The notes under the pieces were generated by a model. That model was not told the origin of the DNA. It was given only the letters and a program-made list of their open reading frames with translations, and ran no database searches. DNA of 42,359 bases from Candidatus Parvarchaeota archaeon (lineage in GTDB: Archaea; Nanobdellota; Nanobdellia; Parvarchaeales; Parvarchaeaceae): assembly GCA_023261805.1 (NCBI GenBank), contig JAGDXV010000022.1, positions 1 through 42,359 of the forward strand. Direction: 5' to 3'. Positions 1,770-42,266 of this stretch are shown here, piece after piece. The stretch's first letter is position 1; the number at the start of each line of letters is the position of its first letter. Both the position numbers and the translations under genes were made by a program.

Positions 1770-2328
1770 TAGAAAAGGTCAGATAACACTGATAGATCTT
1801 ATTTTAGCGCCGTTGGTAGCGGTGATACTTTCGGTGATAGCTGTTATGATATTACAGGGATCCACATTTCATCTGATCAATGAGGTTAACATGGAGCCTA
1901 CTGTTGAAGCGTGCAACTTTGGACTTGAAACGCTTTTTTCTTCCTATTATGTTCATACAGCTTCTTCATTGCAATATCTTCAGTCAGCTCATCCGAATCA
2001 GTATGCGGTGGCCACGACAGAACCATTGCAGATCCAGACAGTAAGCTGCGGATATAATTGTTCTGTATCATATGAAGATATTCCTAACACATTGGGAACA
2101 TCATCAGATTTCTATGTAGATTTCATACAGTATTTCGATCCTTTTGCGTTGAGCGTTTTCAATGTTTCCGTTGGGGAAGATGCACCCGAAATGCAGGCCT
2201 TTGGGATGCAGGTGTTTTTGAATAGAGTACCTGCGTTGCCATATACACCATCAGAAGTATGCAGTCTCACTGTATTTAATCCGCAGGATCCAAGCAATCC
2301 ATATACTATCTATGGGGTGATGAGATAA
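1759..2328 (+). CDS. type IV pilin-like protein with class III signal peptide
   Basis: The 189-residue product starts MEVNRKGQITLID and runs straight into a hydrophobic helix (about residues 12-33). A basic residue plus Gly before Gln, then a hydrophobic stretch with an acidic residue near +6 (here Asp rather than the usual Glu), matches archaeal class III signal peptides (DUF361-like) cleaved after Gly by a PibD/EppA-type prepilin peptidase. The mature part has several Cys and a sequon. It overlaps the previous gene by 11 bases and the next by 1 base. It is probably a minor pilin or the subunit of a surface fibre. The signal is visible; the fibre role is inferred. Confidence 0.8.
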   Translation: MEVNRKGQITLIDLILAPLVAVILSVIAVMILQGSTFHLINEVNMEPTVEACNFGLETLFSSYYVHTASSLQYLQSAHPNQYAVATTEPLQIQTVSCGYNCSVSYEDIPNTLGTSSDFYVDFIQYFDPFALSVFNVSVGEDAPEMQAFGMQVFLNRVPALPYTPSEVCSLTVFNPQDPSNPYTIYGVMR

Positions 2329-5300
2329 TGAGTAAGAAAGGTCAGGTCAATATAATCGCAGTAATAGGGATGATAGCAGCGACAATAATTGCGCTGATGA
2401 ACCTGATGAACTACGTTAATGAATTAGGTCTCAGCTCAGCAATATACATAAACGCACAAAACAGCATCTATCAGGTGGCGGGGATGAAGGATTATATCCT
2501 TCAGCAAGCTCAGTACAACTTTGATAAGGCACAGTTGATGACTGGATTGAATCTTGTGCCATCAACAACTTCATGCGGTTATATAAATGGGACACAGCTA
2601 CTTCCACAATTGGGAATTCCGAAGATATACTATTGGAACACACCTTCTGGTCAGACATGCTTGCCTTACAATTCAGAGATAGAATATGCGATACTTAAGA
2701 TATTGAGTCAACCAAGCTTTTCAACGATTCCCGTGAATAACAGTCCTGACTTCAAAGAGTACATTGACATAAATTTAACACATGAGTCAGGTGATCTGTA
2801 TCAAGGTTCATTCACCTCGCCTGTTTTCAATGGGCAATATGTAATAACTTTGGATAAGTCTCAGGACACCGTCAGTGTGACCTATAATGGTAATACTGTC
2901 GCATCCGGCCCGGTTCTATCCACATATCTTTCTATCGGAAATTACTCCTTCCTTTTGGGTCCGGTTGAGAGCACAGTAACAGGAGTATTAAATCAACCGG
3001 CATATCAGGCATCTTTCTTTTCAGGGTCCTTTGTTTCTCCAAGTTCTCAGTACGGTCTGATAACTTTCAATGGTCAGCAGGCGATAGTATATAGCAACCA
3101 GACAAACGGAATGTTTTCATTCCATTTAGCTATTCTCCAAAATCCGTATGCATACACCCTTTCAGAGGCAGATGGAGGGAAAGTTTATAACCTCATAAAC
3201 GGATCAGACACGACTATAGATGGTGAGCCGTATCTTTTCCTTATTACAAACGATACAAACGGGATATTTTCCCTCTCTCCAGTTGATTACACAACTCTTG
3301 CGATCCAGCCCAATTTTGTCTTCATGAAATACCTTGTTAATTCCTTCCAATTGTCAGGTAGTCAGAATCTCCTATTCCCATCGGAAAAGAATCTGTATGT
3401 ATCCCTTTTCACATTTCCTCTGTATAATCCGCAGGTCTGTGTTTCCTCGAATGTAGGCACCTTTTCTATACAGGACTGCTTAAGTCTCGCCGGGCAGGTC
3501 TCTTCGCAGGATTATCTTAGCAATCTTTTGCAGCTGAGCATCGCCTTCGTAAATCAGTCTTTTCCTATCGGTCAGATAAGCATACAGGGCTTTCCGCAGT
3601 ATCTGATATACAATTATCTGGAAAATGTTATCCATGGCGTAAACATGAGGACGGTCTCCGTGAACGGAAGGCCGAAATATGATTGGTACTCATCATTGAT
3701 TTTTGCGATAGGGTCACCGAATGGGCAACAGTATTTGGAGAATGAGATAAGTTGTGCGAAGGAAAATTATTATGGCACTACAATATACGATTGTTCACAA
3801 ACTCCTTCCTGTCTGAGTACATGCAGAAGTGTTCTTTCACAGACCCTTGGATACGCCATCAACAATCTGCTCAGCAATCAAGAGCAGGAGGAATTAAGTT
3901 TCTTGAGCGGTTATCCATTCTCTGTGAGTGTATTGAATGTATCAGTTTCAGCAGCGGAAGCGGCCAACTGTGGAAGCGGAAGTGCATCGTACAGTTATAC
4001 ATATCAGCCCCCTTCATCAGCAGGAACATCATCAGAAGAAGTATTAGGTGTTCCCATCTCTCTTATATTTGGTTACAAAAATGGACTCAAGCTCACACCA
4101 ACTGAGGGCTGCGGTTTACAGGAGGACCCTCAAACAGCCTGTTATCCTGGCTTCTCAACCACTTTGTCTGGAAATTCCAAATCTGGTTTTGATATATTCT
4201 CTTGCTGCTCACCGATATTAGCAAACCAATTCCTAAATAGGACATGCATCGCTAACCTTGGTACGAATAACAGAGCAGTAGCAGAATACATAAACTACTC
4301 AACCGGCCCTCAAAACAACGGTATATGTAGCGCAGGGACGCAAGATGGGCAAACTTATTACTATTGCAATCATTTTATTTTTAATGAAACGAATCCCCTG
4401 TTCGAACCGCAAGGATATATATCGGATTGGGTTCTTCACAGCAATTCCTGTCCAAGTACGATAACTATCGCTGGCCAAACTTTCTCTCAAGGAAATAAGG
4501 ATTACGATATATTATCAGAATACGGCGGTGGTACAAGTCAACCGACTTACTCCCTTTACAACTGGACTTCAGCTTACATTGACAATTTGGATTTGGCAAA
4601 CATATCCGTTCACATGTCAGCAAATTTGGGCGGTGCTGCACCGAACTTAGCCGTCATATTCTCCAGCGGGAATATATCATCTTCTCAGAAGCTCAGTTCT
4701 CCAGCCTTTGCGGTCGATGTGGACATACATGACGGCTCAACCTTTGCTTATAATTCTAATGCAGGGATGATGACAAATGTAGGTGCCGGGGCCGTATACG
4801 CATCCACTGGAAATAATCAAGTGGTCGTTGATAAATCTTGTCTGTCGGGCGAGTGTACTGTGGTGGCCTACGAGAATTCAAGGGAAGCTCTGAATCAATC
4901 CTTCTCCAGCGGTAGCGAGACAGAATCGCTAGGAATATCAACAGGTTCATTACCGTCAAATGTTATTGTACCTGAGTTTTTCGTTACAAATTACTTCCCA
5001 AGCTATGCACCAAAAATAATCATATCATCATATCAGCCAGCCACATTTTTGAATCGTGGCCTGCCAAGCGCAAGTGCTTTTAATATAAGCTACAAATATT
5101 TGGGTCAGACTTACTTCAACGTGATTTCTATAGAAAACGGCAGGAAGTTACCTGCATCCTATCAGCTTGAGGTTCCCCTGACCTCACAGTTTTATGTTTC
5201 ACAGATGTTTCCCAACGAGATAAAAGTTTTTGCAGTATATTCACTTGGAAATGTTAAAGAATTAAGCTGGTGGAATGAGACACCAATCTCTGTTGGGTCT

Positions 5301-6017
5301 CCGCTATGGATAAATATCACAAACAATCCTCCAAGAACCATTTACATTGTCTATGGTCAGGGCGTTGCGTACAACAGTGATTCATACGCTGACAATGGAT
5401 CAAAAGTTTTTCCAGTCTTCTTTTCGAACATCACTCTTCCTTCATCCGAGAGCTTTTCCTTGCTTTATCCTGCAATGCCGTCAGATAATTCGACCGTCAG
5501 CAGCGCCGGACTAGTCCTTCAGCAGAATTCACCCATTCCGCCTTACATTTACAACGTAAGCAGCGGAAGGTTCTATGAGCAATTCGCCTGTGTTACGAAG
5601 TCCTCTATGCTACTCGTAAATGCTTCTTATGCATCTTCATTGCCTTCTATTAACCTTCAGGATCTTTATGGAGCATATGATCCTCTTTATCCAAATCTTT
5701 ATATAATAGGAACTTCCACCCCCTCGGCTCAAGCATCTTCTTTTGTAACAACTTTCTACGCTACCAATTTGCTGCAAGGTGCAACTTGGGAAGTAACTTA
5801 TGATGGAATAGAGAAAACGTCTACAAATCCAACCATCTCTTTCGTCACCCCTCTGGGAACTTATCCGTTTACGATAGGTGGGTCGGTTGCCATTTCTACG
5901 TGCTATGACTATTTTGGAGCTCCTTCTGTGACGAGTGGAAATGAGCTTGCTGGCGGTTCAGTCAGTGTGACCTATGATTATCATGGGGTTCCAACCCATG
6001 CTCCGGGGTGCGGATGA
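2328..6017 (+). CDS. giant pilin-headed surface protein with a DUF2341-like region
   Basis: The 1229-residue protein starts MSKKGQVNIIAVIG and continues into a hydrophobic helix, again a Lys-Gly-Gln class III-type signal, on a protein many times pilin size. The body is rich in Ser, Thr, Asn, Tyr and sequons. A Cys-rich patch lies at roughly residues 547-681, including a Cys-Cys pair. Residues of about 908-1030 show the spacing of DUF2341: a Tyr/Val beta-rich start, a conserved WW-N-E stretch, then LWI, a YG-Q-G segment and a Phe-rich end. A concanavalin-like fold may precede it. GGTGAT at 2316-2321 is a Shine-Dalgarno match 6 bases before the ATG. Likely a cell-surface adhesin or fibre tip; no catalytic motif seen. 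Confidence 0.8.
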   Translation: MSKKGQVNIIAVIGMIAATIIALMNLMNYVNELGLSSAIYINAQNSIYQVAGMKDYILQQAQYNFDKAQLMTGLNLVPSTTSCGYINGTQLLPQLGIPKIYYWNTPSGQTCLPYNSEIEYAILKILSQPSFSTIPVNNSPDFKEYIDINLTHESGDLYQGSFTSPVFNGQYVITLDKSQDTVSVTYNGNTVASGPVLSTYLSIGNYSFLLGPVESTVTGVLNQPAYQASFFSGSFVSPSSQYGLITFNGQQAIVYSNQTNGMFSFHLAILQNPYAYTLSEADGGKVYNLINGSDTTIDGEPYLFLITNDTNGIFSLSPVDYTTLAIQPNFVFMKYLVNSFQLSGSQNLLFPSEKNLYVSLFTFPLYNPQVCVSSNVGTFSIQDCLSLAGQVSSQDYLSNLLQLSIAFVNQSFPIGQISIQGFPQYLIYNYLENVIHGVNMRTVSVNGRPKYDWYSSLIFAIGSPNGQQYLENEISCAKENYYGTTIYDCSQTPSCLSTCRSVLSQTLGYAINNLLSNQEQEELSFLSGYPFSVSVLNVSVSAAEAANCGSGSASYSYTYQPPSSAGTSSEEVLGVPISLIFGYKNGLKLTPTEGCGLQEDPQTACYPGFSTTLSGNSKSGFDIFSCCSPILANQFLNRTCIANLGTNNRAVAEYINYSTGPQNNGICSAGTQDGQTYYYCNHFIFNETNPLFEPQGYISDWVLHSNSCPSTITIAGQTFSQGNKDYDILSEYGGGTSQPTYSLYNWTSAYIDNLDLANISVHMSANLGGAAPNLAVIFSSGNISSSQKLSSPAFAVDVDIHDGSTFAYNSNAGMMTNVGAGAVYASTGNNQVVVDKSCLSGECTVVAYENSREALNQSFSSGSETESLGISTGSLPSNVIVPEFFVTNYFPSYAPKIIISSYQPATFLNRGLPSASAFNISYKYLGQTYFNVISIENGRKLPASYQLEVPLTSQFYVSQMFPNEIKVFAVYSLGNVKELSWWNETPISVGSPLWINITNNPPRTIYIVYGQGVAYNSDSYADNGSKVFPVFFSNITLPSSESFSLLYPAMPSDNSTVSSAGLVLQQNSPIPPYIYNVSSGRFYEQFACVTKSSMLLVNASYASSLPSINLQDLYGAYDPLYPNLYIIGTSTPSAQASSFVTTFYATNLLQGATWEVTYDGIEKTSTNPTISFVTPLGTYPFTIGGSVAISTCYDYFGAPSVTSGNELAGGSVSVTYDYHGVPTHAPGCG

Positions 6018-6089: not shown

Positions 6090-9000
6090 ATGGCAATAAC
6101 AAGACTGAATGGTTTTCTACTGTCTATCCTTTTTTTATTAGTTATAGTTTTCGTTTTCAGTTTTTCTGCGAGTAGAAATACTGTTAATTCTACTCCTGTA
6201 GGTAACTCCATTTTATCTCCATATGTATTATCGAGCTTAAACAAAACAGTTTCAAGTGTTGATTCAATAAGCAGTCTGGATCCATCATTTTCAAATTTGA
6301 TATCCAATAATGAGTATATTTGTCCTTCTTATCCATGCGCCTTGAACAGCAGCATTTGGAACACTTACTCCCAACTTGCTGAACAATCAGGAACACTTTC
6401 AAGTATCTTCTCAATTTTAACAACCAGTATCCTTGGTATACTCTCCGTTCCTTTGAACAACGGATTCGATCAAGTTAACCAGTTTATACCAGGTGCCGTA
6501 AGTGGCACTACCTGCATTGCTCCATCCTCATTTTCTTATTATGGCCCTTTTTTGCCGTCTGGTTCGACTGACACTTCATACAGTGATTTCACGGGCTTCT
6601 TTGGATATCCTCAGGAGAGTACTATCACGCCAGAATATAATGTCAAATTTCCTTCTTTGTTTTCTGGGATAATAAATCTGACGGAAGTATTGACTTTTAA
6701 TCTAGCTGAGGGCAGTGTTAGATCTCCTTATGATGAACCAGGTTCAAAGGGAGTCTATAACATAATTGAATGGGGTCAGAGCTCGCTTCACTATTATCCT
6801 GGCACTAGTTACATGTATGCGGAGAGCACTGATGCAGATCTTTATGTGAATGCATCGCCCGGTCAATCCAGTATGATATCTGGGAACACTTTTATAGTGC
6901 CTGCAATATCTTGCGGTGCAACTGCTACTCCGCCCGTTTTAATCGGCACGACGTATGCAGTTCCTCTAACTTCCGGGTTTGTACCCGCTGTTGGTCTGGC
7001 GGCACAGTCTTCAGTAGGATCGATAGTTAAATCACTTGTTGTAAACGAGTTTTCGAGTGATGACATGTTCTGGTCTTTTTATCAGTATGAGGGCCAGTTC
7101 CCGCAGCTTGCTGTTAAAACACTGAAATCGGATTTCAACTTCACTGAGCCCTCGTTGAATTATGCCGCTTTTCCACCTGGAAACAATGGGGATTCACAAT
7201 ATATTAACAATTCAGGTTTCTTTTCGGTTCCTGTTAATGCAACTTTATTCTTTGGGCAGCAGTTTAATCAGCAGAACTTCTTTGTGTACGAAAGCAACAA
7301 TACAATTTTAACATATCAAACAAGTTCAGATACTCCATCCCTTGCAGATGCTACTAAGGTTTCAAATGTTTCAGCATATTCTGTCCCGAACTTAGTGCCT
7401 GCATATTGGCCTTTCTTAGGCGTATTCGGGGGTTCTTTTGGGTCGAGTAGCGGTCCAGATCCTGCTCTCATATACGATACTTTCAAGGTAGATGGGATTC
7501 TCCCGGTTTGTAATATCGGAAATGGGTACAGTTACTGCACCATGAACAACGCAACGAGCGTAAATCCGATATCACCATACAGGCTTTGGGATTATGAAGT
7601 TAGTGGAAATACTTATAGAACAGGATCAATGTTTGGTGGCAGAACAACAACTCAAAACATAGGAACTTGCCATAACGGAATATGTGCTGTTCAGCCGCAG
7701 TCATATTCTGAGCCGCTGAATCAAAATCCGTATGCTCCGGGTTACGATCCGAACGATGTTTACATTAATACTCTGGAAGAAGATGCTCTGAACAGTTTCT
7801 GTTTCTATGGAGATAATTTTGATACATCAACCGGAGTTTACGATTCGCCGAGCTATACAAGGATAATTCCTCCTCTTTCATCAGAGAACTACACTGTAGC
7901 TTTAGGGAAGTGTAATGGCTTTTTCAATAGCACGGATTGCTTTGGCAGTAGTAATGGGAACTATCTCAATTTTGAATCGGGAATATTTTTATCCAAAGTT
8001 TCATGTACATCAAACGGGATATATCCAACTAATGTTACAGATGCATGGATAAGCAGCGTATCGATAGCTAACAATGCTGGGCAATTCTGTGGTTACTTCG
8101 GTGGTAAGAAGGCTCCAGTGAATCCAGTGACGTTTACTGGACTAGGTCAGCTTTATGCCAACAACACAGTTTTCACCGATACGGTTTCCTCCTGTCCTAG
8201 TTTTAATAACGGTTCTGCTTATGTCAATCTACTCGTGACGGTCCAAAACGTTGGTAATTCCTACATCACTGCCCCCTATTTGTATGTTTTGTATGGAAAT
8301 GTTCAACCGAGTCAGATGTTTTATGCAGAGCAGAATACACCGCAAAATGATTACGAGCTTTATCAGACTTTTCTTCTGAACATGAACTCTCAGTCAAGTG
8401 GGCTGATCCAATTGAGATATCTTAATGGGGGACCGCAAGAAGACATGTTCTTCTCAAGGCCCGGAAATTCAGCTCAGGATATCCCTATCTCCGAACTGTT
8501 TTCTGGGGATCAGGAGTATGTAAACGGTCCATACAACAATTCGCTGTTAGGAATGTGGCTGGATTATAATGGAAAAATAATAAGGACTTCGAATACCTTT
8601 CTGTCTTACTCCAATTCAGGCAATACTTTTCCAACTGTTATAATACCTGGAGGAAAGGCATCCTTTGATATAGAAATTCCCCTTCCAGTTTTTGAGATGC
8701 TTCTGAAGAACAACGAAAAGATAGGGATATACTTTGGAAACATGTTCAATGTTAATTGGTGGAACACACAGATTGGTCAACAATACGTTCCTTCAAGCAC
8801 CTCAAACTCAACTTATACCCACAATACTGAATATCTTGATCCTTCATCTTCTTATCCTATGCCGATCTGGCAATACATAGTCGGATCGGAGATGAACATT
8901 GGAAATTCTGTTTTCAAATCCGTTTCAATCTACTCGGATAGTTTCAGTTTGTCGGTTTCGGCTGATAACAATAATGCAAGCATACTTGATTTGGGTGTCA

Positions 9001-12000
9001 GTACAAACATATTGAAATTCAATGGAAGCGGTTTGTATAACCTGACTAAGATTCAAGAGGGATCGAACGGCGTCGGTCCTTTATCAGGTTCTTCTTTGAC
9101 CTGCTTTGCTACGCAGGACAACATGAACGACTTTGACGTTTTCTGGAGCGTTCACGCGGCTTCGTCATCAAATCTTAAGTTTTTGATGGAGAAATACTAC
9201 GGTGAAAATGCCTATCAAAATGAGATAATTAATATTTGGCGTGGGCTTGTATTCATGCCGTATGCTTCGAATGTCGTTTTGAACTACAATAATCTCCCGT
9301 ACTTCCCAACTGATACGGCATCCTTTTCTCTGGAGGAGCCTGCTATTAATTCTTCTTCTACCGTGAATCAAAAGATCGGTTTCGTTTCGCTTCAGGAGAC
9401 CGGGGAACAATCCTCCCTGAAGGCGCTTTCCGATGTTTATCATACGCTAAATACGACGAGAGTGAATATTTCGCAGGCTTTTCCTACGCCAGCAAGTATG
9501 TACGGTTTCTCGATATCTGCCCTCGTCCCAATTAAAAATCAATCGATTCTGAAGATAGGCGCTATGACTCAGGTATCGAATTCTTCTCCTTTCTCCGATA
9601 TTCCGGTATCTATCACTTTGCTTAATGCTGATGGATCCACTTGTTTGTCTGGAGTGTATCCGACAGATCAGTATGGTGTTGTCAATATCACAGAAGCATG
9701 CAGTGGACTGGAAGGCGGTAAGGCCATAATTACTTCTCCTTCAGGGCCGTTCAGCGTCACAATGTATAACAATACTCCTTTGAATATCACAAATACCTCC
9801 TATAACGGAGCCATGGTTGTGGCCGGGAATTTCTCTAGCTTTTCTTCCAACAACGGGTATAGAGTTACTTTGAACTTGGCCAATTCGGTTTTCAACGGTA
9901 ATGGAGTCTCATTTACGTTCTCCTATATTCCGGAATCGTTAGTTTACAAAAATTCCTTGCTCTATCTGTATTATCTTAATGGGACTCCATTTAACTGTAA
10001 TCCCGTGGATGAAAACATCTTCGGGGTTAGCACTTTGGCTCCTGGAGAATACAGACTTTACAATGGCTCAATACTTTGTTCAATCAATTCTCCATTCAAC
10101 TATCTCCGTGCTGTCTTTTTCAACGTCACAAACGGCGCATATCTTGGTGGAGGAGACATAGAAAGTGGATTGATGATAGCATACAATCAATCTTCGCAGG
10201 GCAATTTGTTGAAGTTTTGGTATAATGGCAAGCCAGTGACTTCCCAGGACGTCAACATGTCGGAAATATTTCCATCTCAATCACCGCCATATTATACAGC
10301 AAACAGTTGTGTTCAAAACCAGCTGATCACGAATGGTGTCCTTAATCTATCTGATTCAAGTGTGTCTTCTTGCAGTTCACTGGGAAATGGGCAAAATTAT
10401 ACTATTGATTTATATGTTAGTTCTGGTGGGGTAATGACGAAGGTCTCCGCTGCAATTTTCAATCTGTCTTTGCCGGCATCGGGAAGTGGGATGATTTCGA
10501 TGTCTCCGCAAGTAGTTTTGGATGCTCCATCGGGCATACAGAACTTAACTATAAACAATCCTAGTGTACCTACCCCTGTCTTCTTCAGCGTGGCTTCAAC
10601 CGCTGTTACATCTTGCAACGACATCAGGTTAATACAACCGAGTGGAAATGCATTCCCATATGAGGAAATTCCTTTCCAGGTAGTTTCAAATGTAAGTCTA
10701 TGCGATTATGTGTTTATTGCCCGGCCATCTTTATCTGGGAGTAAGATAACATATGAAATCTATAGGTCGACGCAACCGGCGATCCCATACTCATCTAATT
10801 GGGGTAGCTTTTCGAATGATGTTTACTATTATAAAATTAAAGCTGATAACTATTCAGCGGATCTTCTTCCGAATTGTATGGCCTCTTTGGGTCCTTGTCT
10901 TTCTAATGTCACCGCTTTTGGAAAGTCTGTTGGTACTTTGCTTTTGAACAATGCTTCCGCTTATTCTACTGAAATGAGACCGGTGGCAAGCGGGCCAGTC
11001 ATGAACTGCATAGACGTTTTGTATACTTCCTCATATACATTAAAGCTTCCGGTCAGCGGGTTTGGAGGATTAAATTACAACCTTAATAGACTTTATCAGA
11101 TAGCCACTCCTTCTCAGCAGATAATAAGTTCTTACTGTTTCTTTAGAGGAAGCGACGTTATCCTTGATTATATTTCAATGACGGGCCCTCAAGTTCCGTT
11201 TAGTTTAGAAAATAAACTTAACACTACTTTCATATCTGCTCAGTCTGGAAATGGTTTATCAATGGGCCTTCCAAAGCCAATCTCTACCTCTTGCCTAAGC
11301 AGTACGACAGCTTCATATACAACGACGACTGTTGGTGTTGGTGGAAGCACAACAACCTATGTTATCTCCCCAAACTGTTTGTCAATACCTCCTCCGCCTC
11401 AAGAACCCAACATGAAAAATGTTACATTGCCAAGCTCCTATTTCAATACAGCTAATGGTCCGTTTTTCTGTCTTGGTCAAACCTATCCAACTTATACACC
11501 TCAATTTGAATTTTACTCCACTGGTACACAAGCTGATTCGTATGGAAATTACAACAATATGTCTGGCGGTCTAAGTTACCTTTATACTCCTGGTAATTAT
11601 AGTATCACAACTCAGTATGGAAATACGATATACTATGATACTTGCATACCACCGAGTGGAACTGCGGAGACTGTAAATACGCTCAATGAGCCAAAGTTCT
11701 ATTTTGGTTCTTCAATTGGGCAGCCATATGATGGCTCTTCAGGGGAAAATTATCTTGAGAAAAACGTGGCGATGACAGCGATTAAGAACACAGGTGTTTC
11801 AAGCAACATACTCTTTAATCCAAATGGCGGTGAACTCATAGGAAAGTGTCCGATCAATACATCGATAAGTGATTACACATTTTGTATCAAGCCTGTAGGA
11901 AGCCAGTACTTTTATCCAACCAATTCATATCCAGGTGGACTTGAAGGGCTTCCAAATAATCGTTCGAGTGTTTACAATTATCCAATAGGGGGCGGCTGCC

Positions 12001-14081
12001 TTGTCGATACTAATAATCCCTCAGGTCAGTATTACTGCGCACCTACTTTCGGCAATCTTAGCAATTCTTATCCAGGAAGTACTTCATATGATTCAGTCAA
12101 TGTCAGCTCTGAAGGGTCACTTCCTTATGAATGGTCAAGCAGCAAGAATTCGAATACTTTGTCTTCGCAGAGCCTTGAGGCAAGTTTCAGCTGCTCCGGT
12201 CAGGCAACTGTAGAGGAAAGCGAGTCGGTAGAGTACTATGAGTATAACACAACAACTGGCAATATACTTAATCCAGACGCAGGATCATGTACATTTTATA
12301 CGACACAGAATGAACCAGTTTCATGTAGTTATAATAATGGAATGAGCTCAGGTAGCAGATGCAGTACAAGTTTCTCAAATGGAAATCTTCAATCAGCAAT
12401 AAGCAGTCCTTCGACAGAGATCACCCTGAGTCCAGTTTCCTACTGCAAGCTTAATGAGAACCCGGCTGAGTACAGCACCTGGTACGTCTCTCCTGAATGT
12501 GCCCCTCCTCCAGGAAATGCAACTGCAGGTTATGCTTATGCAGTTTACACTTCACCAAGTGAAGCTAGAGAATCTGTCGTCAAAGTATATCCATATTCAC
12601 TGACTATATACACCACCGCCATAAGCTTGAATCAGGGTGAGAATACAACCTACTATCCAGGGGATTATTCTGATAGTTGTCAAAATGGAACCACTGCCAT
12701 AAAAGATGATGTTGGATTTGGATGGTCTTGGCATCCATATATGTCTTATGAGTTCGGTGTTTACACAACAAATCCTGATGGAATACCTTTAGTTGGTGGC
12801 TGCGAGGCGAACAGGGATACTTATGATGTAACAAATCCGACAATTTCTGTATCTACAAGTGGAAATGGATACCAATATACCTATTCCTGTCCTTCAGGCT
12901 ACTCCGGAAGCATACTGTCATGCGAAAACGAGTCAGCGTCGCGATCAGCAACTTTGAATAGCTCAGTCTTCAGTGCATCGTGTACATCAACATCCCCTGT
13001 GCTTACACAGACCACACAGCAATATTCGTCAAATTCACCGTATTATGGTGCAGCATGCACATCATGCGCCTCTCTTCCAAGCGGGGATCAGAATCTTTAT
13101 CAGCAACCGAATCCTCAAGCGTCTTGTCTTGCTCTTCCAAGGACGCAATTCAACAGTACAATGGCTCCGTATGTGCTTCAGTATTCGAATGATTCCAATA
13201 TAGGAATAGGTCTCGGAGTTTTAGGACCAAATTCAAGGTTGAATATCACTTTGCCCGGAGACACCGAGTCTACGCATAAGGATCTTTATATGACAAGTCT
13301 TTCTGAGGTGCAGACAGAAGCAGAGAATCTGTTCCTTCAGCTTTATCCTTTCTCTGCTTTGAATCAGAAAACTCTCGCATCAGGAATGGAAGAATCGTTC
13401 ATGTTTCCTTTCGATCTTCTGGATGCGTATCTCCTTCAGAATCCTTACTTTGGTGTGAGCGGCGAGCCAGGATTTATCAATGGAAGTGTATATGATGATG
13501 CAATGAATATCTTTTCAGGAGGCACACAATACAATTGTCCTAGCTCCAGCTTGAGGGGGAACTACGGAATATACGCCCTTGGAGAAGGTGTTCTTTGCGA
13601 TGGGAATAACCTGCCAAGCGACTATGTCAATGGAATCTACGCTTCATTAGGCACGTTGAATGAGGGACCACATGCTGTTCAGTTCTATAGCGTATCTGCT
13701 GGAAACAACAGCATACCTCCTACCGTTGGACTTTATAGTAGCGGCGGTCGGGCGGTTTCATTGAATACCGCTTGTTCGAATGGAAATAGCAGGTCTTTTA
13801 CGTTCTCCTATGATGGGACACAGAAGACGTTTGATATTTCATCGGATGACGAATGCGATCCAATAAACAATCTTTTGTATGGGTACATAATAAATTGCAT
13901 GTATCAGACACCGGAAAATCAGACCTATAACATAGGGTCAGTTTATTATTTAGCTTATGATCTACCAACAGTTTGGGATGTTAGTTATACCCTTCTTGTT
14001 TCTCCAAGGAGCTATAATGTTGTGCCGGTCAAGGTGAAGCTAGCGACAGGAAGCAGTGGCTCTTACATAACGATAGGCTAA
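6090..14081 (+). CDS. giant (2663 aa) N-terminally anchored surface protein
   Basis: This is the largest gene of the window. Residues of about 8-27 form a single hydrophobic signal-anchor after a short start containing one Arg. The rest looks extracellular: very rich in Ser, Asn, Tyr, Gly and Pro, with dozens of N-x-S/T sequons and many Cys. A Thr/Gly-rich linker lies near residues 1740-1760, followed by a region with dense Cys. No C-terminal membrane helix is visible. I recognise no enzyme motif or named domain. It lies 72 bases after the 1229-aa gene on the same strand, with its own ribosome binding site. Probably an S-layer-like, stalk or adhesin protein; the role is inferred from size, anchor and composition. 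Confidence 0.8.
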   Translation: MAITRLNGFLLSILFLLVIVFVFSFSASRNTVNSTPVGNSILSPYVLSSLNKTVSSVDSISSLDPSFSNLISNNEYICPSYPCALNSSIWNTYSQLAEQSGTLSSIFSILTTSILGILSVPLNNGFDQVNQFIPGAVSGTTCIAPSSFSYYGPFLPSGSTDTSYSDFTGFFGYPQESTITPEYNVKFPSLFSGIINLTEVLTFNLAEGSVRSPYDEPGSKGVYNIIEWGQSSLHYYPGTSYMYAESTDADLYVNASPGQSSMISGNTFIVPAISCGATATPPVLIGTTYAVPLTSGFVPAVGLAAQSSVGSIVKSLVVNEFSSDDMFWSFYQYEGQFPQLAVKTLKSDFNFTEPSLNYAAFPPGNNGDSQYINNSGFFSVPVNATLFFGQQFNQQNFFVYESNNTILTYQTSSDTPSLADATKVSNVSAYSVPNLVPAYWPFLGVFGGSFGSSSGPDPALIYDTFKVDGILPVCNIGNGYSYCTMNNATSVNPISPYRLWDYEVSGNTYRTGSMFGGRTTTQNIGTCHNGICAVQPQSYSEPLNQNPYAPGYDPNDVYINTLEEDALNSFCFYGDNFDTSTGVYDSPSYTRIIPPLSSENYTVALGKCNGFFNSTDCFGSSNGNYLNFESGIFLSKVSCTSNGIYPTNVTDAWISSVSIANNAGQFCGYFGGKKAPVNPVTFTGLGQLYANNTVFTDTVSSCPSFNNGSAYVNLLVTVQNVGNSYITAPYLYVLYGNVQPSQMFYAEQNTPQNDYELYQTFLLNMNSQSSGLIQLRYLNGGPQEDMFFSRPGNSAQDIPISELFSGDQEYVNGPYNNSLLGMWLDYNGKIIRTSNTFLSYSNSGNTFPTVIIPGGKASFDIEIPLPVFEMLLKNNEKIGIYFGNMFNVNWWNTQIGQQYVPSSTSNSTYTHNTEYLDPSSSYPMPIWQYIVGSEMNIGNSVFKSVSIYSDSFSLSVSADNNNASILDLGVSTNILKFNGSGLYNLTKIQEGSNGVGPLSGSSLTCFATQDNMNDFDVFWSVHAASSSNLKFLMEKYYGENAYQNEIINIWRGLVFMPYASNVVLNYNNLPYFPTDTASFSLEEPAINSSSTVNQKIGFVSLQETGEQSSLKALSDVYHTLNTTRVNISQAFPTPASMYGFSISALVPIKNQSILKIGAMTQVSNSSPFSDIPVSITLLNADGSTCLSGVYPTDQYGVVNITEACSGLEGGKAIITSPSGPFSVTMYNNTPLNITNTSYNGAMVVAGNFSSFSSNNGYRVTLNLANSVFNGNGVSFTFSYIPESLVYKNSLLYLYYLNGTPFNCNPVDENIFGVSTLAPGEYRLYNGSILCSINSPFNYLRAVFFNVTNGAYLGGGDIESGLMIAYNQSSQGNLLKFWYNGKPVTSQDVNMSEIFPSQSPPYYTANSCVQNQLITNGVLNLSDSSVSSCSSLGNGQNYTIDLYVSSGGVMTKVSAAIFNLSLPASGSGMISMSPQVVLDAPSGIQNLTINNPSVPTPVFFSVASTAVTSCNDIRLIQPSGNAFPYEEIPFQVVSNVSLCDYVFIARPSLSGSKITYEIYRSTQPAIPYSSNWGSFSNDVYYYKIKADNYSADLLPNCMASLGPCLSNVTAFGKSVGTLLLNNASAYSTEMRPVASGPVMNCIDVLYTSSYTLKLPVSGFGGLNYNLNRLYQIATPSQQIISSYCFFRGSDVILDYISMTGPQVPFSLENKLNTTFISAQSGNGLSMGLPKPISTSCLSSTTASYTTTTVGVGGSTTTYVISPNCLSIPPPPQEPNMKNVTLPSSYFNTANGPFFCLGQTYPTYTPQFEFYSTGTQADSYGNYNNMSGGLSYLYTPGNYSITTQYGNTIYYDTCIPPSGTAETVNTLNEPKFYFGSSIGQPYDGSSGENYLEKNVAMTAIKNTGVSSNILFNPNGGELIGKCPINTSISDYTFCIKPVGSQYFYPTNSYPGGLEGLPNNRSSVYNYPIGGGCLVDTNNPSGQYYCAPTFGNLSNSYPGSTSYDSVNVSSEGSLPYEWSSSKNSNTLSSQSLEASFSCSGQATVEESESVEYYEYNTTTGNILNPDAGSCTFYTTQNEPVSCSYNNGMSSGSRCSTSFSNGNLQSAISSPSTEITLSPVSYCKLNENPAEYSTWYVSPECAPPPGNATAGYAYAVYTSPSEARESVVKVYPYSLTIYTTAISLNQGENTTYYPGDYSDSCQNGTTAIKDDVGFGWSWHPYMSYEFGVYTTNPDGIPLVGGCEANRDTYDVTNPTISVSTSGNGYQYTYSCPSGYSGSILSCENESASRSATLNSSVFSASCTSTSPVLTQTTQQYSSNSPYYGAACTSCASLPSGDQNLYQQPNPQASCLALPRTQFNSTMAPYVLQYSNDSNIGIGLGVLGPNSRLNITLPGDTESTHKDLYMTSLSEVQTEAENLFLQLYPFSALNQKTLASGMEESFMFPFDLLDAYLLQNPYFGVSGEPGFINGSVYDDAMNIFSGGTQYNCPSSSLRGNYGIYALGEGVLCDGNNLPSDYVNGIYASLGTLNEGPHAVQFYSVSAGNNSIPPTVGLYSSGGRAVSLNTACSNGNSRSFTFSYDGTQKTFDISSDDECDPINNLLYGYIINCMYQTPENQTYNIGSVYYLAYDLPTVWDVSYTLLVSPRSYNVVPVKVKLATGSSGSYITIG

Positions 14082-16266: not shown

Positions 16267-16945
16267 TCGTAATCATCTCCAGTATCTGTTCCTCTTTCAT
16301 CGTCTCCAATCCAAGCCTTCTGAACCAGTCATTGATATTGCGTATGTCCCTGATCAGATACTGCCTTGTTGCACTGCTGAGTTTAAGCGCTTGGGAAAAA
16401 TCGATTATGTAAGGTTCTTCGTTGAAATTGAGTATGTTGTATGGACTAAGGTCTCCGTGTATTATCCCTCTTTTTGCAAGTTTTATTATATCATCGATTA
16501 TTTCCTTGTACCATCTGTCCACATCAAATGAACTGCTTTTTACAGCCAGTTCGGCGGGTCTTTTATCTGAGCCTATGAACTGCATCACTATCACATTTCC
16601 GCTTCTTCCATACGGCTCGGGACACTTTACTCCGGCGGAATATGCTCTTTTCAAGGTCTCATATTCGTAGCGGGTCCATTCATCTATTATTTTTATGAAG
16701 CCGCCCGCCCTTTTTCCCCTCAGTTTGAGGTATTCGGGTATCGATTTGAAGGTGTTTATGTTGTGTCTGTGTATTTTGATCGCCGAGGCCCTTCCAAAGT
16801 CGTCTTCTGTATAAAATATATTGGCTTCTTTTCCGCTTCCGATAGGGCCAGAGATCTCGTTTATCAGGCCCGAATTTATAAGCCTGCTTATGTTTTCACC
16901 GGTGTTTTTGTCAAATAAGGGGGAATATTTTTTATCTTTCTCCAT
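16241..16945 (-). CDS. rio1: RIO-type serine kinase, Rio1-like
   Basis: This atypical protein kinase/ATPase takes part in maturation of the small ribosomal subunit. Visible: nucleotide loop GSGKEANIF (36-44), Lys57 in AIKIH, the FIG hinge motif after VIVM (119-125), catalytic loop [10 protein letters not shown] with Asp165 and Asn170, and metal-binding IIDFSQA with Asp182. There is no N-terminal winged helix of the Rio2 type, and the ID-SQ motif fits Rio1. At 234 residues it is close to other archaeal Rio1 proteins. It overlaps lonB by 14 bases and ogt by 26 bases, so the three are probably translated from one message. Confidence 0.92.
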
Positions 16946-18851
16946 GTTTCTTGAAAGCGGTTTTGATCGCCCTTATAAGCCTCATCTTCTCCCTTTTTCC
17001 TGTCATCGCGTAGTTTATCACGTCTGTTATAGATGTGGCGGTTATTATTTTTACCTTGTTTTTAAGCTGCGGTATAACATCGTCTTTGTTTGTTGATGGT
17101 ATGATCACTTCCTTTATCCCTGCGTTGATCGCTGCCTCAATCTTCGGATTGACACCCCCTATTGGAAGAACTTCTCCGAGTATGGAAAGTGAGCCAGTCA
17201 TCGCAACATCCTGTCTAACAGGTATGCCCGTAAGTGCAGAGAGGATGCTGACAGCTATACTTATGCTCGCACTATCCCCCTCAACACCTGAATAAGCCTG
17301 AAGGAATTGGATGTGTATATCATAGTCGCTCATCTGCTGCTTCGAATACGCCTTCACTATGGCTGAAACGTTTTTCACGGCCTCCTGTGCGATCTCACCG
17401 AGTTTTCCTGTGGCGATTATCTCACCGGCTCCCTTCCTCATGCTTTTTGTTACTATCGCTTCTATGGGCAGAAGCAAGCCAGAATCTGAATTTTCTATCA
17501 CGGCCAGTCCATTGACCCTTCCAACCCTCGCACCTTTTGTCTGTATGACATCATATTCCTTTTTCTCTTTGATGTACCTTGAGGCGACCTGTTGTTCAAA
17601 GGACGTCGCATACTCCTTTGCATTTATCACATCCTCGGCCTCAACTATTTTCTTCCCTTTCTCCCTCGCCATGTCGCCGGCAACACGTATTATGCCGCCA
17701 AGCTCTCTTAATTTCAGTGTGAGGGCATTCTTTTTGTCCGCTCTTCTTTTAGCTTCATTGACTATCTCTATAACGGCGTTTCTTGAGAAGGGAGGGATCC
17801 TTCCATCTTTTTTGATCTCCTGTGCCACAAATCTGGCTATTTTATCTCTGTTCTCGACCGTATCATCCATGAAATCATTCATGTAAACCTCATAACCATA
17901 CCCTCTTATCCTGGATCTCAGTGCCGGGCTCATCTTCGTTATTGACTCTGGGTTTCCAGCACCGACAAGAATAAAATCACAAGGTACAGGCTCGGTTTTG
18001 ACCATCGCTCCCGCACTTCTTTCGCTTCTTCCTGTTATAGGGGCTTTCTTTTCCTGCATCGCCGTAAGCAGCTGTATTTGCATCTCAGGGGTCATATCTG
18101 CTAATTCATCGATGAAGAGGACCCCTCCATTGGCCTTGTGTATGTCACCTAAAACGACCCTTTCATGAGGAGGTGTTCCAAGGCCGCCTGTTTGGAAAGG
18201 ATCATGTAGGACGTCGCCCAGCAGAGCCCCTTCCCTTGCCCCTGTTGCATCTACGAAAGGTGCAACCTTAACGTTCGAATTATCAAGCAGAAGTTTTGGA
18301 GTCAGAACATTGCTCACCCTTGTCCTTGTTAATCTATACATCAGGAGAACCATCAAAAAGCCGATAAGCATCGTTATTATGAAGAGCGTTCCGGAGATCT
18401 GATCAGCCGCTGCAAGCACCGCGTTTGACTGGGAGTTTACGATCAATTCGACGATATAACTGGCTATGAAAAAGGCAACAAGGATGCCCAAGAATATTAC
18501 CGTGCTGTTACCGTTATTGATCGATGCGAGGGCCTTAGCTTTGGATTGTGCGACTATCTTTTTTCCCTCACCGGCAGGGACGGTCTTTATTATTGGATTG
18601 TTCTCGTCTTTGGGGTTTGGATAAGCAAGAATATCCACGAGTTTTTCTGTTGGCAGCAACTCAGAGAGTGCCTGACCAAGCATACTCTTTCCAACGCCGG
18701 GCTGACCAACGAGAAGCACGTTCCTGTGCTGTATTGCAGCTTTTTTGATTATCTCGACCGCCCTATCTTGTCCTATGACTTGATCGATCAGCCTTTCAGG
18801 TACCTTGATGTCTTCCGTTGTTTTGAATTTAATGCTGAATTCCTCATCCAT
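16932..18851 (-). CDS. lonB: membrane-anchored ATP-dependent protease LonB
   Basis: Archaeal Lon of the LonB type, a hexameric AAA+ Ser/Lys protease facing the cytoplasm from the membrane. Order: AAA+ part with Walker A GQPGVGKS (49-56); an insertion with two membrane helices (about 118-138 and 155-172); Walker [10 protein letters not shown] (242-250); sensor and arginine regions; and a C-terminal S16 protease domain. The catalytic Ser lies in EGDSAS at about 527 and the catalytic Lys in [10 protein letters not shown] at about 570, the usual 43-residue spacing. Length (639) is normal for the family. It degrades misfolded and membrane proteins. It heads a run with rio1 and ogt, overlapping rio1 by 14 bases. 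Confidence 0.97.
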
Positions 18852-38403: not shown

Positions 38404-39345
38404 TTATCTAAACTTGTCATAGAATGCGGTCCAATTGTAATATCCGCATATGTCTCCCGCTTTTTCATTTGCATTGCATATCGCTGCTATTATCATATCT
38501 GCCTCTATTCTCATCGCAACGGAATAAGCATCATCTTCTCCATACATGGCCTTTTGTGCCAGCTCGGTTGCATTCTGCGAGATGTTCATCGGTGCCAGTG
38601 CTGTCAGAGCTCCATTCATATAAACACCAGCAAAACTTTCGAGAGGAGTGCCGAAGGCATTGTTCACTATCGCCCCGTTTTTGACTCCAAGAGCATACAA
38701 GGGTTCAAATTCAGGATAAGCCTCGAGCATCTGCTGGGCAGGAGGGGGATAGAATCCATAGGGCATATAATACTCAACACTGTTGAATTGAACTGTCTTG
38801 GAACGGTATGTGTTTCCGACCATGAATTTGAGGGTAGTTTCATTCGTTTTCCCTTGGATCGATTCATTAGTCAGCGTTCCATTTTTGAGCCAGTAGACGA
38901 CGGGAACGGTAACATTTTTCTCCCCAAATAGGAATTCGGGAAGATTTCCATCACCGTATGAATATGAATCTATCAGGGACGAGAAGTTTCCAAACTGGTC
39001 TAATGCGATCACAAGTCCAACGCTCAATCTGGCGCAGAACTGGCAGTTTGTCATGCTGGCCAAATAAACCATCACCTTCCCATCGGTGTTATTGATCATC
39101 AACCCATCATTTTGAGACTTGGGGATGAAAATATCATACTGATTAGCCGTTATTTTTCCGCTCATAAGGGCGTTCGCCGTTGTTATCAGGTTGCTGGACA
39201 CATTATCTGAAGGCTGCGTTTGGTAATAGCTTGCATGGTATAGGAATTCATAAGTTGCAAATATCACAACTAAGACAGCCAAAGCGGCTATCACGGCGAT
39301 CACAATCAGCCTTGTTCTTCCTTTCGCACTTTTATTTTCCTCCAT
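38404..39345 (-). CDS. DUF929 family exported thioredoxin-like protein
   Basis: 313 residues: a single N-terminal membrane helix (about 13-35), then an external domain. Cys101 and Cys104 in NCQFCARLSVGLVIALDQFGNF match the DUF929 (PF06053) core, which has a C-x-x-C pair and an FGNF strand. A second Cys pair sits near the C-terminus (AICNANEKAGDICGYYN). Several sequons fit extracellular exposure. The family occurs in Sulfolobales, Thermoplasmatales and ARMAN-like archaea. The role is unknown; a disulfide or redox function outside the cell is inferred. It lies between psmB and fttA on the same strand. Confidence 0.85.
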   Translation of the reverse strand: MEENKSAKGRTRLIVIAVIAALAVLVVIFATYEFLYHASYYQTQPSDNVSSNLITTANALMSGKITANQYDIFIPKSQNDGLMINNTDGKVMVYLASMTNCQFCARLSVGLVIALDQFGNFSSLIDSYSYGDGNLPEFLFGEKNVTVPVVYWLKNGTLTNESIQGKTNETTLKFMVGNTYRSKTVQFNSVEYYMPYGFYPPPAQQMLEAYPEFEPLYALGVKNGAIVNNAFGTPLESFAGVYMNGALTALAPMNISQNATELAQKAMYGEDDAYSVAMRIEADMIIAAICNANEKAGDICGYYNWTAFYDKFR

Positions 39346-39382: not shown

Positions 39383-40006
39383 TTACTTGGAGATGATCTT
39401 ATTGATCTCCTCGTCTGTAAGCTTGTTATACCCTTTTTTGTTGATCACGACTATATCTATTCCATTTCCTGTGTAAACATCACGTTGAAGGGAGGAGGAA
39501 ACTGCTTTGTGCGCTAATCTTATCGCCTCCTCTTCGCTCATATTATCCTTGTAATCTGCTTGTAGGACGCCAAGCGCAAAGACACCGCCGGAACCGGTGA
39601 AAGCGTACTTGTCTTCGGTGTATGATCCAACCTCATCTATCACAAATAATCTCGGCTTTGTATCATATCCACCAACAATTAGCTCAGCGTACAATATATT
39701 CAGGGACAACCTCTTTTCGTAAAGCATTGAACTCAGCAACCCAACAACGGCCTCTGTTGTCATCTCAGACCCAGATCTTATTGTGAAAAGCCTTGTTTCA
39801 GCCTGTATGAGCTTGACAAGCACCTGTAGGTCAGACACCAATCCAGCTGTCGTTATTCCTATGTTTTTCGTCACAGGAAATATCTTTTGTCCATTTGGAT
39901 GTGCGACAATGTGATCCAAAGACACCCTTCTATCCGCTGCCAAAACTACACCGTCCTTGTAGACAAGCCCTATCGTTGTAGTTCCAGTTTTTTCAGCCAT
40001 AAACAT
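39383..40006 (-). CDS. psmB: proteasome beta subunit
   Basis: Catalytic subunit of the 20S proteasome. A short propeptide (MFMAEKTG) ends in Gly before the Thr nucleophile TTTIG; counting from it, Asp17 (AADRR) and Lys33 (GQKIF) complete the active site. Visible too are AETRLF, ELIVGGYD and TGSGGVFALGVL. The 207 residues are normal. A TTTTTATA element centred 25 bases upstream supports the start at 40006 rather than the second Met at 40000. No alpha subunit lies in the window. Confidence 0.97.
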   Translation of the reverse strand: MFMAEKTGTTTIGLVYKDGVVLAADRRVSLDHIVAHPNGQKIFPVTKNIGITTAGLVSDLQVLVKLIQAETRLFTIRSGSEMTTEAVVGLLSSMLYEKRLSLNILYAELIVGGYDTKPRLFVIDEVGSYTEDKYAFTGSGGVFALGVLQADYKDNMSEEEAIRLAHKAVSSSLQRDVYTGNGIDIVVINKKGYNKLTDEEINKIISK

Positions 40007-40125: not shown

Positions 40126-40133
40126 AATTTAAA
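40126..40133 (+). promoter_or_regulatory. TATA box of the 87-aa gene
   Basis: AATTTAAA is preceded by ACAAAAAG, which can serve as BRE. It is centred about 26 bases upstream of the ATG at 40156. Confidence 0.55.
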
Positions 40134-40155
40134 TCCTCACAGCATATTATAATGA

Positions 40156-40419
40156 ATGCAGTTTGAAGATATAGCTGAGCCGAACGAATTGATCGTCAGA
40201 GAGGGCTCCAACAATTTCATAAAGATAAACATGACAAAAGGAAAGGAAGGAGACAGGGAGATAACTTTTATAAGCATCAAGAAGGGTTATTATGTTGATG
40301 TAAACGGTAAAAAGCAGGAAAGGATAAAAACAAGCCTTTCCGTGAATTTCGACGAGTTACCTCTTCTGATAGAGGCACTGTCATCATTTAAGAAAAAACT
40401 TGAGTCAAGCACATTTTGA
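40156..40419 (+). CDS. small unrecognised protein, possibly PC4/Whirly-like
   Basis: 87 residues, no signal or membrane helix. The pattern is beta-strand-like: FIKINMTKG, ITFISIKKGYYVDVNGKKQERIKTSLSV, then a helix (LPLLIEALSSFKKKL). A strand-rich front with a GYY turn and a C-terminal helix is reminiscent of PC4-type single-stranded DNA-binding proteins, but I would not assign it. It has a clear leaderless promoter and its stop overlaps the ATG of the Lon-like protease gene (TGATG), so the two form one unit. A link in function is unknown. Confidence 0.75.
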   Translation: MQFEDIAEPNELIVREGSNNFIKINMTKGKEGDREITFISIKKGYYVDVNGKKQERIKTSLSVNFDELPLLIEALSSFKKKLESSTF

Positions 40420-42266
40420 TGCTTATGAATAAAATAATTTACGTATTGTTGTTTGTCGTAGCTTTATCACTAATAGGGGTCTCGCACGCGTCTCCATCAA
40501 ATCTGACTGTGATTGGAAAAGCAGGCCTCTACATCTTCGGCGTGACCCAAGAGCCGAATGGAACGATGGTCGGTGTACCCGCTATGCTTAATCTTACCGT
40601 CACGAAGGGGACAGGGCAGATATATATAGGTTCAACCCCCTTGACAGGCACGGATACACAAGCACAGGCAGTCATATCAACGGATGTTGCGTGTAGGTTA
40701 TTAAATGTCAACTGTAATCAGTATAATTTCTATTATTTCATCACCTCCTTTTCCCCAGAAGTGAGCGGGCCGAGCGCCGGTGGCGCTTTCACCATCGCCG
40801 CCATGTCGATTCTATCTGGTAAGCCGTTAAATCCGAATGTAGCGATGACGGGTACAGCGAATCCGGATGGGAGTGTCGGGATTGTCGGGGACGTATCTGA
40901 GAAGAGTGAGGCAGCTGCTCTTCAGGGGATAAAGATCTTCCTCTATCCTTCGACTGACAACGTATCTTCGAGCGCTGAATCTTTTGATCAGGCCCGTGGA
41001 ATGGAGACGATTCCCATAAGCACGATAGATCAGGCCTTCGAATATTTTACAGGCTATAGCGTGTATCAACCATTAAATTCTAGCATCTATACACCGTTTT
41101 ACAATGCGGTCATGAACAGGACATACTATGTAATTTCTTCCTATCAAACCCAGCTTTATGATAGCCTCCCAAGCGTCACGCCTAGCAATCAGACGGCTGA
41201 GTACTACATAACAACCGCGCAGAACGCCATCACTAGGGAGAGGAGTCTTTATTCGGAAGGCGATGCATACGATGCGGCTAGCCTGGCTATAAATACTTCC
41301 ATCCCCGATCTTGTGATGGCTAGAGTGATCGAATCAAGCGGCGGAAATCTCCAGTCTTATCTCAGTTCTTTAATCAATCAAGAATATGGACAGATCTCCT
41401 CGACTTACAATAATGTAACTCAAGACTACGTAACAAATTCCTCCGATCTCGATCTGAAGTTGATTGCTGTGGATAGACTTGCCCAGGCCAGTTATCTCCT
41501 GAACGCATCAAATTCCTCCCTGTCATCGAATCTCTCCCAGGCCCTTTATTACTACGCTCTTGCGAACACGAAGCGCGTCTCGGCTGTTTTTTGGGTTTCT
41601 ATTCTGCCAAGGGGCCATGTTTCGTTCAGTCAGGATTCATTTTATAATTACAGCTCCTATTATCTGTATAAAGCCTCTTCCTATGCCGATTATTCAGCGC
41701 TTCTGGGCGTGAATTCCCCGGATCAGATTTCACTGATGAATTATTATCTTAACAAGGCAAATAATTATTATAATGAAGGTCAGTATATACCATCGATCTT
41801 CGATTCTATTGAGGCGTTAGGGGTGTCACAATTGATAATAGAGGAAAACAGTGTGATAAATGGCTCCTTTGCTCCTATAAACTCTCAGCTTGCAAACATG
41901 GCCTTAGCATCCATAGACAACGCTGAAAGAGCAGGGGTCACGCCGTTCCTTGGAATAAGTTATTATCAGTATGCTCAGAGCTTCTCCCCTGATACAGGAG
42001 AGGCGTATCTGATACAATTCTATGCAAATTCTATGCTGTACTCGGAGTTTGAGGAAGACCTTGTCAGCGGTGCTACATTGAAAAGTGTGGCACTTGTTCC
42101 TTCATCTGCTCCTGTTCAGAATGTTTACACATTTCAGCCTGGAGACGCATATATTTTATATTTCCTCTTCATAGTTTCACTCATAATAATCGCTCTTAAA
42201 TTGATCTCAGAAAACAGATTTCATCCTGTAAGCAAAAATAAGAAAACCAGGCATCAAAAACACTGA
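40419..42266 (+). CDS. exported Lon-like Ser/Lys protease (COG1750 type)
   Basis: Order: signal peptide (about 4-25), a Lon-like (S16-type) protease domain, a long helical region with many Tyr, Ser and sequons, and a C-terminal membrane helix (about 582-602) with a basic tail. The catalytic Ser119 lies in SGPSAGGAF, the catalytic Lys162 in GDVSEKSEAA. The spacing of 43 residues equals that of LonB. No AAA+ part is present, so the protease works outside the cell without ATP. Fits archaeal COG1750. I chose the ATG at 40419, overlapping the upstream stop; a TTG at 40416 and an ATG at 40428 are alternatives. Confidence 0.9.
   Translation: MLMNKIIYVLLFVVALSLIGVSHASPSNLTVIGKAGLYIFGVTQEPNGTMVGVPAMLNLTVTKGTGQIYIGSTPLTGTDTQAQAVISTDVACRLLNVNCNQYNFYYFITSFSPEVSGPSAGGAFTIAAMSILSGKPLNPNVAMTGTANPDGSVGIVGDVSEKSEAAALQGIKIFLYPSTDNVSSSAESFDQARGMETIPISTIDQAFEYFTGYSVYQPLNSSIYTPFYNAVMNRTYYVISSYQTQLYDSLPSVTPSNQTAEYYITTAQNAITRERSLYSEGDAYDAASLAINTSIPDLVMARVIESSGGNLQSYLSSLINQEYGQISSTYNNVTQDYVTNSSDLDLKLIAVDRLAQASYLLNASNSSLSSNLSQALYYYALANTKRVSAVFWVSILPRGHVSFSQDSFYNYSSYYLYKASSYADYSALLGVNSPDQISLMNYYLNKANNYYNEGQYIPSIFDSIEALGVSQLIIEENSVINGSFAPINSQLANMALASIDNAERAGVTPFLGISYYQYAQSFSPDTGEAYLIQFYANSMLYSEFEEDLVSGATLKSVALVPSSAPVQNVYTFQPGDAYILYFLFIVSLIIIALKLISENRFHPVSKNKKTRHQKH

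Follow-up and report, generated by a model that had tools for sequence, protein, structure and literature searches.

We consider it quite probable that the exported Lon-type protease and the small, putatively nucleic-acid-binding cytoplasmic protein encoded next to it represent two independent genes, which are neighbours by inherited gene order. The small gene is very probably not the partner of the protease, merely adjoining it in this lineage. The idea that an exported protease and an orphan form a regulatory pair is thereby removed as a false lead. Of the two, the protease is ordinary for its kind, and more interest attaches to the small protein with its unnamed family.

Both genes are present as open reading frames in the window, i.e., the whole stretch of 42,359 nucleotides that was analysed (contig C15 of a tiny archaeon of acid mines, with an assembly of 0.55 Mb that is 89% complete), and their coordinates are given with those of the other features in Table 1. 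Three start codons can be considered for the protease, all leading to the same end at 42266: TTG 40416 (616 aa), ATG 40419 (615 aa) and ATG 40425. ATG 40419 is more likely than TTG 40416, and ATG 40425 is possible too.

Table 1. Features of the small gene, the protease and their neighbours in the window, followed by the loci in other genomes referred to in the text.
Feature	Position or locus	Strand	Basis or remark
TATA-like box TTTAAAT	40129..40135	+	putative, read from sequence; ~27 bases 5' of the small gene ATG
Small protein gene	40156..40419	+	ORF; 87 aa, cytoplasmic type
Exported Lon-like serine protease	40419..42266	+	615 aa from ATG 40419
Hydrophobic N-terminus (~residues 1-26), probable Sec signal peptide	40419..40496	+	hydropathy, model helix
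Lon proteolytic domain (~residues 30-211)	40506..41051	+	catalytic S119, K162
Cysteine pair C92...C99, possible disulfide	40692..40715	+	conservation (pair); disulfide presumed
All-helical region (residues 226-550), N-glycosylation sequon-rich	41094..42068	+	AF2 model
C-terminal transmembrane helix (~residues 576-600) and short basic tail	42144..42263	+	hydropathy, AF2 model
Proteasome beta subunit	39383..40006	-	PF00227, E 4e-51; divergent neighbour, in inherited gene order
LonB with AAA+ domain, cytoplasmic/membrane	16932..18851	-	TIGR00764, E 1.6e-252
Micrarchaeota protease/signal-peptide-peptidase loci	L131:4674-5762, L137:574-1569, L156:4952-5944, L157:971-1948		PF06550
Small-homologue loci near Rad50/Mre11/HerA/NurA	L063, L064, L066, L069, L070, L072, L073, L075, L077, L078, L183-L186		

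The exported protein is a Lon-like serine protease, presumably with proteolytic activity. Pfam Lon_C (PF05362) matches its residues 117-208 (E 3e-10, 40.3 bits at a cut-off of 21.1), and a phmmer search against the PDB returns archaeal Lon domains (best 5e-9). The AlphaFold2 model, based on a 33-sequence alignment (pLDDT 86.7), contains the complete Lon proteolytic fold. The top Foldseek match of this model is the proteolytic domain of E. coli Lon (E 3.5e-9, TM (target) 0.77), for which TM (target) values span 0.77-0.80. Sequence score, spacing of the Ser-Lys dyad and fold all assign the protein to peptidase family S16.

The dyad S119/K162, with a spacing of 43, is kept in 33/33 aligned homologues. 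The original prediction regarded this as the spacing of cytoplasmic LonB; the dyad and its spacing stand, but since the window's own LonB also has a spacing of 43, this value is not specific to LonB, representing instead the general Lon spacing common to LonA and LonB. Moreover, the serine motif of the exported protease is GPSAG, i.e., of the LonA type, in contrast to EGDSAS in the LonB of the window (motif definitions from PMC2605481). The LonB gene is separate from that of the exported enzyme, and these two account for all Lon_C matches in the whole assembly. The exported protease has no AAA+ domain and falls outside the archaeal LonB family TIGR00764 (45.3 bits at a cut-off of 516.6, with the protease part alone matching).

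Export of the enzyme without an ATPase, which was predicted originally, is supported by its hydrophobic N-terminus and C-terminal anchor in addition to the lack of the AAA+ domain. The N-terminus shows a hydropathy maximum of about 2.3 at residues 1-24 and a model helix at 3-20, and a hydrophobic start is present in all aligned homologues. At the C-terminus, hydropathy is 2.67 at residues 579-597, the AlphaFold2 helix spans 576-600, and the basic tail presumably lies in the cytoplasm. The large helical, glycosylation-rich region that had been predicted is likewise seen at residues 226-550, and the mature protease carries 15 sequons versus 7.6 +/- 2.4 in shuffled sequences, an excess which is real but modest. 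No Pfam family matches the helical region, and among the Foldseek matches listed, Lon domains fill the output and none classifies it. C92 and C99 are the only cysteines of the mature exported part, and both are kept in 27/33 homologues, a conservation that would suit a disulfide in an exported domain. The cysteine pair and the sequon excess both agree with an exported protein, and the combined evidence supports a predicted protease that is exported, anchored in the membrane and free of an ATPase, and of which a large part is helical and rich in sequons.

We suggest that this protease may act as a single-pass, outward-facing Lon-type Ser/Lys endoprotease, which would be exported by its signal peptide and anchored by its C-terminal helix, and in which the Lon domain would cleave without an ATPase motor. 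Since such an enzyme would have no unfolding power, its substrates should be limited to flexible, unfolded, damaged or membrane-proximal proteins, and the helical domain may select them or bring them to the Lon domain. It would serve in quality control outside the cytoplasm or process proteins of the surface and the membrane. It is plausible that surface proteins, perhaps including giants, are processed or cleared by this protease. The giants on the surface mentioned in the original prediction are the window ORFs 2328-6017 (1229 aa) and 6090-14081 (2663 aa), neither of which has a Pfam match.

The gene neighbourhoods in other lineages are consistent with this role. In Micrarchaeota, the protease gene comes directly after a signal-peptide-peptidase (SPP)/presenilin gene (PF06550) in the four checked loci, which hints at the clean-up of membrane or exported proteins, and in Diapherotrites it comes after ribosomal stalk genes; both types of neighbours suit housekeeping at the site of export. 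The enzyme may alternatively be catalytically competent but nutritional, degrading environmental peptides for uptake and not processing surface proteins. This would agree with the peptide scavenging that was suggested for the secreted serine peptidases (S16 and S53 listed) of the acid-mine Parvarchaeota Ca. Acidifodinimicrobium (PMC7779479), and with the listing of T. gammatolerans tg2111 among the enzymes of protein-substrate assimilation (PMC2718504). We regard this as rather unlikely, since the protease is membrane-anchored, not released, and since many unrelated lineages have retained it next to genes with housekeeping functions (GlyRS, ribosomal proteins, SPP), which fits such a function better. 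An extracytoplasmic Lon protease without ATPase is thus retained in ultra-small archaea, and its SPP neighbour in Micrarchaeota suggests a compact outer-face quality-control set.

The 87-aa protein belongs to no Pfam or NCBIfam family, and its profile detects homologues in 51/378 genomes of the class. Its AlphaFold2 model (pLDDT 91.5) consists of four strands followed by a C-terminal helix (beta4-alpha, read as PC4/Whirly-like), a predicted topology that would fit the ssDNA-binding folds of PC4/MoSub1 and PUR, whereas there is no significant sequence or profile similarity to these proteins. The top Foldseek match is the MoSub1-DNA structure 4bhm (E 0.016, probability 0.99, TM about 0.5), the best matches also include 5zg9 and 8chv, and PURA is among the top ten; since CaMKII hub domains score similarly, the fold match with MoSub1 is suggestive only. 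PDB profile matches to the designed repeat proteins 8vd6 and 8erw were discarded because they represent sums of many sub-significant repeats.

A true membership of the small protein in the PC4 family (PF02229), as a protein like the transcriptional coactivators, could be argued from its fold topology, the top Foldseek match and a profile search that gave MoSub1 at E 0.87, but this match was gone with a larger profile, and we consider such an identity improbable. Membership in PC4 was rejected on the basis of hmmscan, which gave no match, and of a PF02229 search of 141 genomes, which finds the PC4 proteins of family f5, not the small gene; hhalign of the small family against the PC4 members of f5 and related ones (probability 0.6%) speaks against the link as well. 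The true PC4 proteins (PF02229) of f5, a family of the same class, are encoded at L192-L201, and f5 has no small-protein matches; the exported protease was also not found in most f5 genomes listed.

Outside the Parvarchaeota family of the window (f1), 15/25 small-gene loci, which are not phylogenetically independent of each other, lie within 5 kb of Rad50, Mre11, HerA or NurA genes, as checked with Pfam. These loci come from families f10, f16, f20, f23, f26, f33 and f41, and in two cases the small gene is 60-67 bases from HerA. In family f12 (L187, L188, L189), its neighbours include HhH-GPD repair glycosylase-like genes as well as Ssb-like OB genes; Pfam confirmed this repair-gene context in L187 and L188, and an Ssb-like OB protein is given for L187.

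The gene context points in the same direction as the fold, and most likely the small protein would bind nucleic acid and serve in repair or recombination. More tentatively, and with slightly less than balanced confidence, we propose an undescribed DPANN family of nucleic-acid-binding (probably ssDNA-binding) PC4/Whirly-like proteins. In Nanoarchaeia-type archaea, these would act together with Mre11-Rad50/HerA-NurA end resection or with base-excision repair, and they would replace PC4-like proteins where these are absent. The small protein, which is unannotated, is conserved in many families of DPANN and is encoded close to the principal genes of DNA end resection, is a candidate ssDNA-binding protein of repair.

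Within family f1, a common gene order is widely kept: FttA, proteasome beta, RHH-nucleotidyltransferase (not in every member), small gene, protease, GlyRS and NAD(P)H-hydrate dehydratase. The third of these, an apparent ribbon-helix-helix (RHH) N-terminus fused to a nucleotidyltransferase (PF00483; L079:7431-8255 and relatives), occupies this place in most family members, but is absent there in the window. Just 3' of proteasome beta and on the same strand, the window encodes a DUF929-like protein (38404-39345, minus) with an N-terminal hydrophobic segment and a CxxC motif (MTNCQFCARL). In G004, representing the third genus of the family, reductase and dehydratase genes come directly after the protease, and GlyRS is elsewhere. 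Adjacency of the small gene and the protease is kept in nearly all family members with both genes visible, which possibly reflects a weak selective link there.

The start of the protease was originally reported to overlap the stop of the 87-aa protein gene. This overlap is indeed present (ATG 40419 shares one base with the small gene's stop codon, TGATG), but it occurs in the window genome only, and other directly adjacent pairs are separated by 5-86 bases. Leaderless archaeal mRNAs usually have their TATA box 27-34 bases upstream. At this distance 5' of the protease start, a TATA box (TTTATA, TTATAA or TTTAAA) is found in 14/20 relatives, while by chance the mean is 1.15/20 and the maximum 6/20 (2000 shuffles). 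The remaining 6/20 have no clear TATA box and include both relatives from the window's own genus (L034, L035); since the box is not clear throughout this genus, the window included, co-transcription is likely there, but derived. The stop/start overlap in the window genome may mean that the promoter between the two genes was lost recently.

A gene on the opposite strand lies between the small gene and the protease in L079 and L081 and, according to gap length and sequence, in L080; in L079 it is YdjC-like by Pfam. L082 shows the same arrangement of the small gene and the opposite-strand gene as far as the contig end and presumably represents a fourth insertion locus. The genome to which L082 belongs (G023) carries two different small-gene copies on two contigs (L082, L083), which is probably a result of a mixed bin, not of duplication. 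Co-loss was rejected as evidence for pairing: the five family genomes without both genes are also without the essential neighbour GlyRS, which indicates an assembly gap, not co-loss, and in these genomes, G006 excepted, no gene closely matching proteasome beta is present either.

Outside the family, a homologue of the small gene and a protease match of the full-length type occur together in 12 genomes (G032, G034, G038, G042, G044, G047, G052, G054, G059, G062, G069, G076), and they are adjacent in 0/12, with either separate contigs or distances of 34 kb and about 500 kb between them. When 80 named protease loci are considered (up to 6 kb flank), the small gene is seen solely in Parvarchaeota of family f1. 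The functional pairing proposed in the original prediction is not upheld by the separate TATA boxes, the inserted antisense gene and the lack of adjacency outside the family. The same prediction had named non-conservation of the pair and a small protein found beside unrelated genes as observations against it; the latter is fully what we see, and the former holds outside the family. A role of the small protein as a dedicated partner of the exported protease in the cytoplasm (regulator, inhibitor or assembly factor), translationally coupled to it, would agree with the overlap in the window and with the adjacency retained in family genomes with both genes on one contig, but is very improbable given that the two proteins are predicted to be in different compartments, the overlap is unique to the window, relatives have their own protease promoter or an inserted antisense gene, the small family outside f1 never adjoins the protease and is mostly close to genes of DNA repair, and many lineages retain the protease at loci without the small gene.

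Homologues of the same architecture as the protease were found in Parvarchaeota, Woesearchaeota, Diapherotrites, Micrarchaeota, Thermoproteota, Methanosarcinales/ANME-2, Hadarchaeum, Bathyarchaeota and some bacterial assemblies. This distribution across DPANN, other archaea and some bacteria indicates a protease of an already known kind. The homologues, which have a signal-peptide-like N-terminus, a GPSAG...K Lon domain, a long helical region, a C-terminal hydrophobic helix and no ATPase, can be likened to the archaeal exported S16-type proteases, called the COG1750 group in the original prediction (our literature search found no paper naming COG1750). T. gammatolerans tg2111 serves as an exported S16-type comparison by its description, not by sequence. 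Compared with this group, only the sequon richness and the basic tail are specific to the family studied here.

In the bacterial extracytoplasmic PDZ-Lon proteases of the SepM/YlbL family, the Lon proteolytic domain is likewise exported or anchored in the membrane and has no ATPase. NF041438 (SepM) matches residues 115-180 of the protease (E 1e-7), yet the score of 31.2 bits is under the cut-off of 200 and Pfam detects no PDZ domain, which places the protease outside SepM; instead of PDZ, it has the C-terminal anchor and the helical region. With the proteolytic domains of archaeal LonB (TIGR00764) and LonA, it has in common the fold and the Ser/Lys dyad spacing of 43, whereas it differs from LonB in being extracytoplasmic, in doing without AAA+ and in carrying the LonA-like GPSAG instead of GDSAS.
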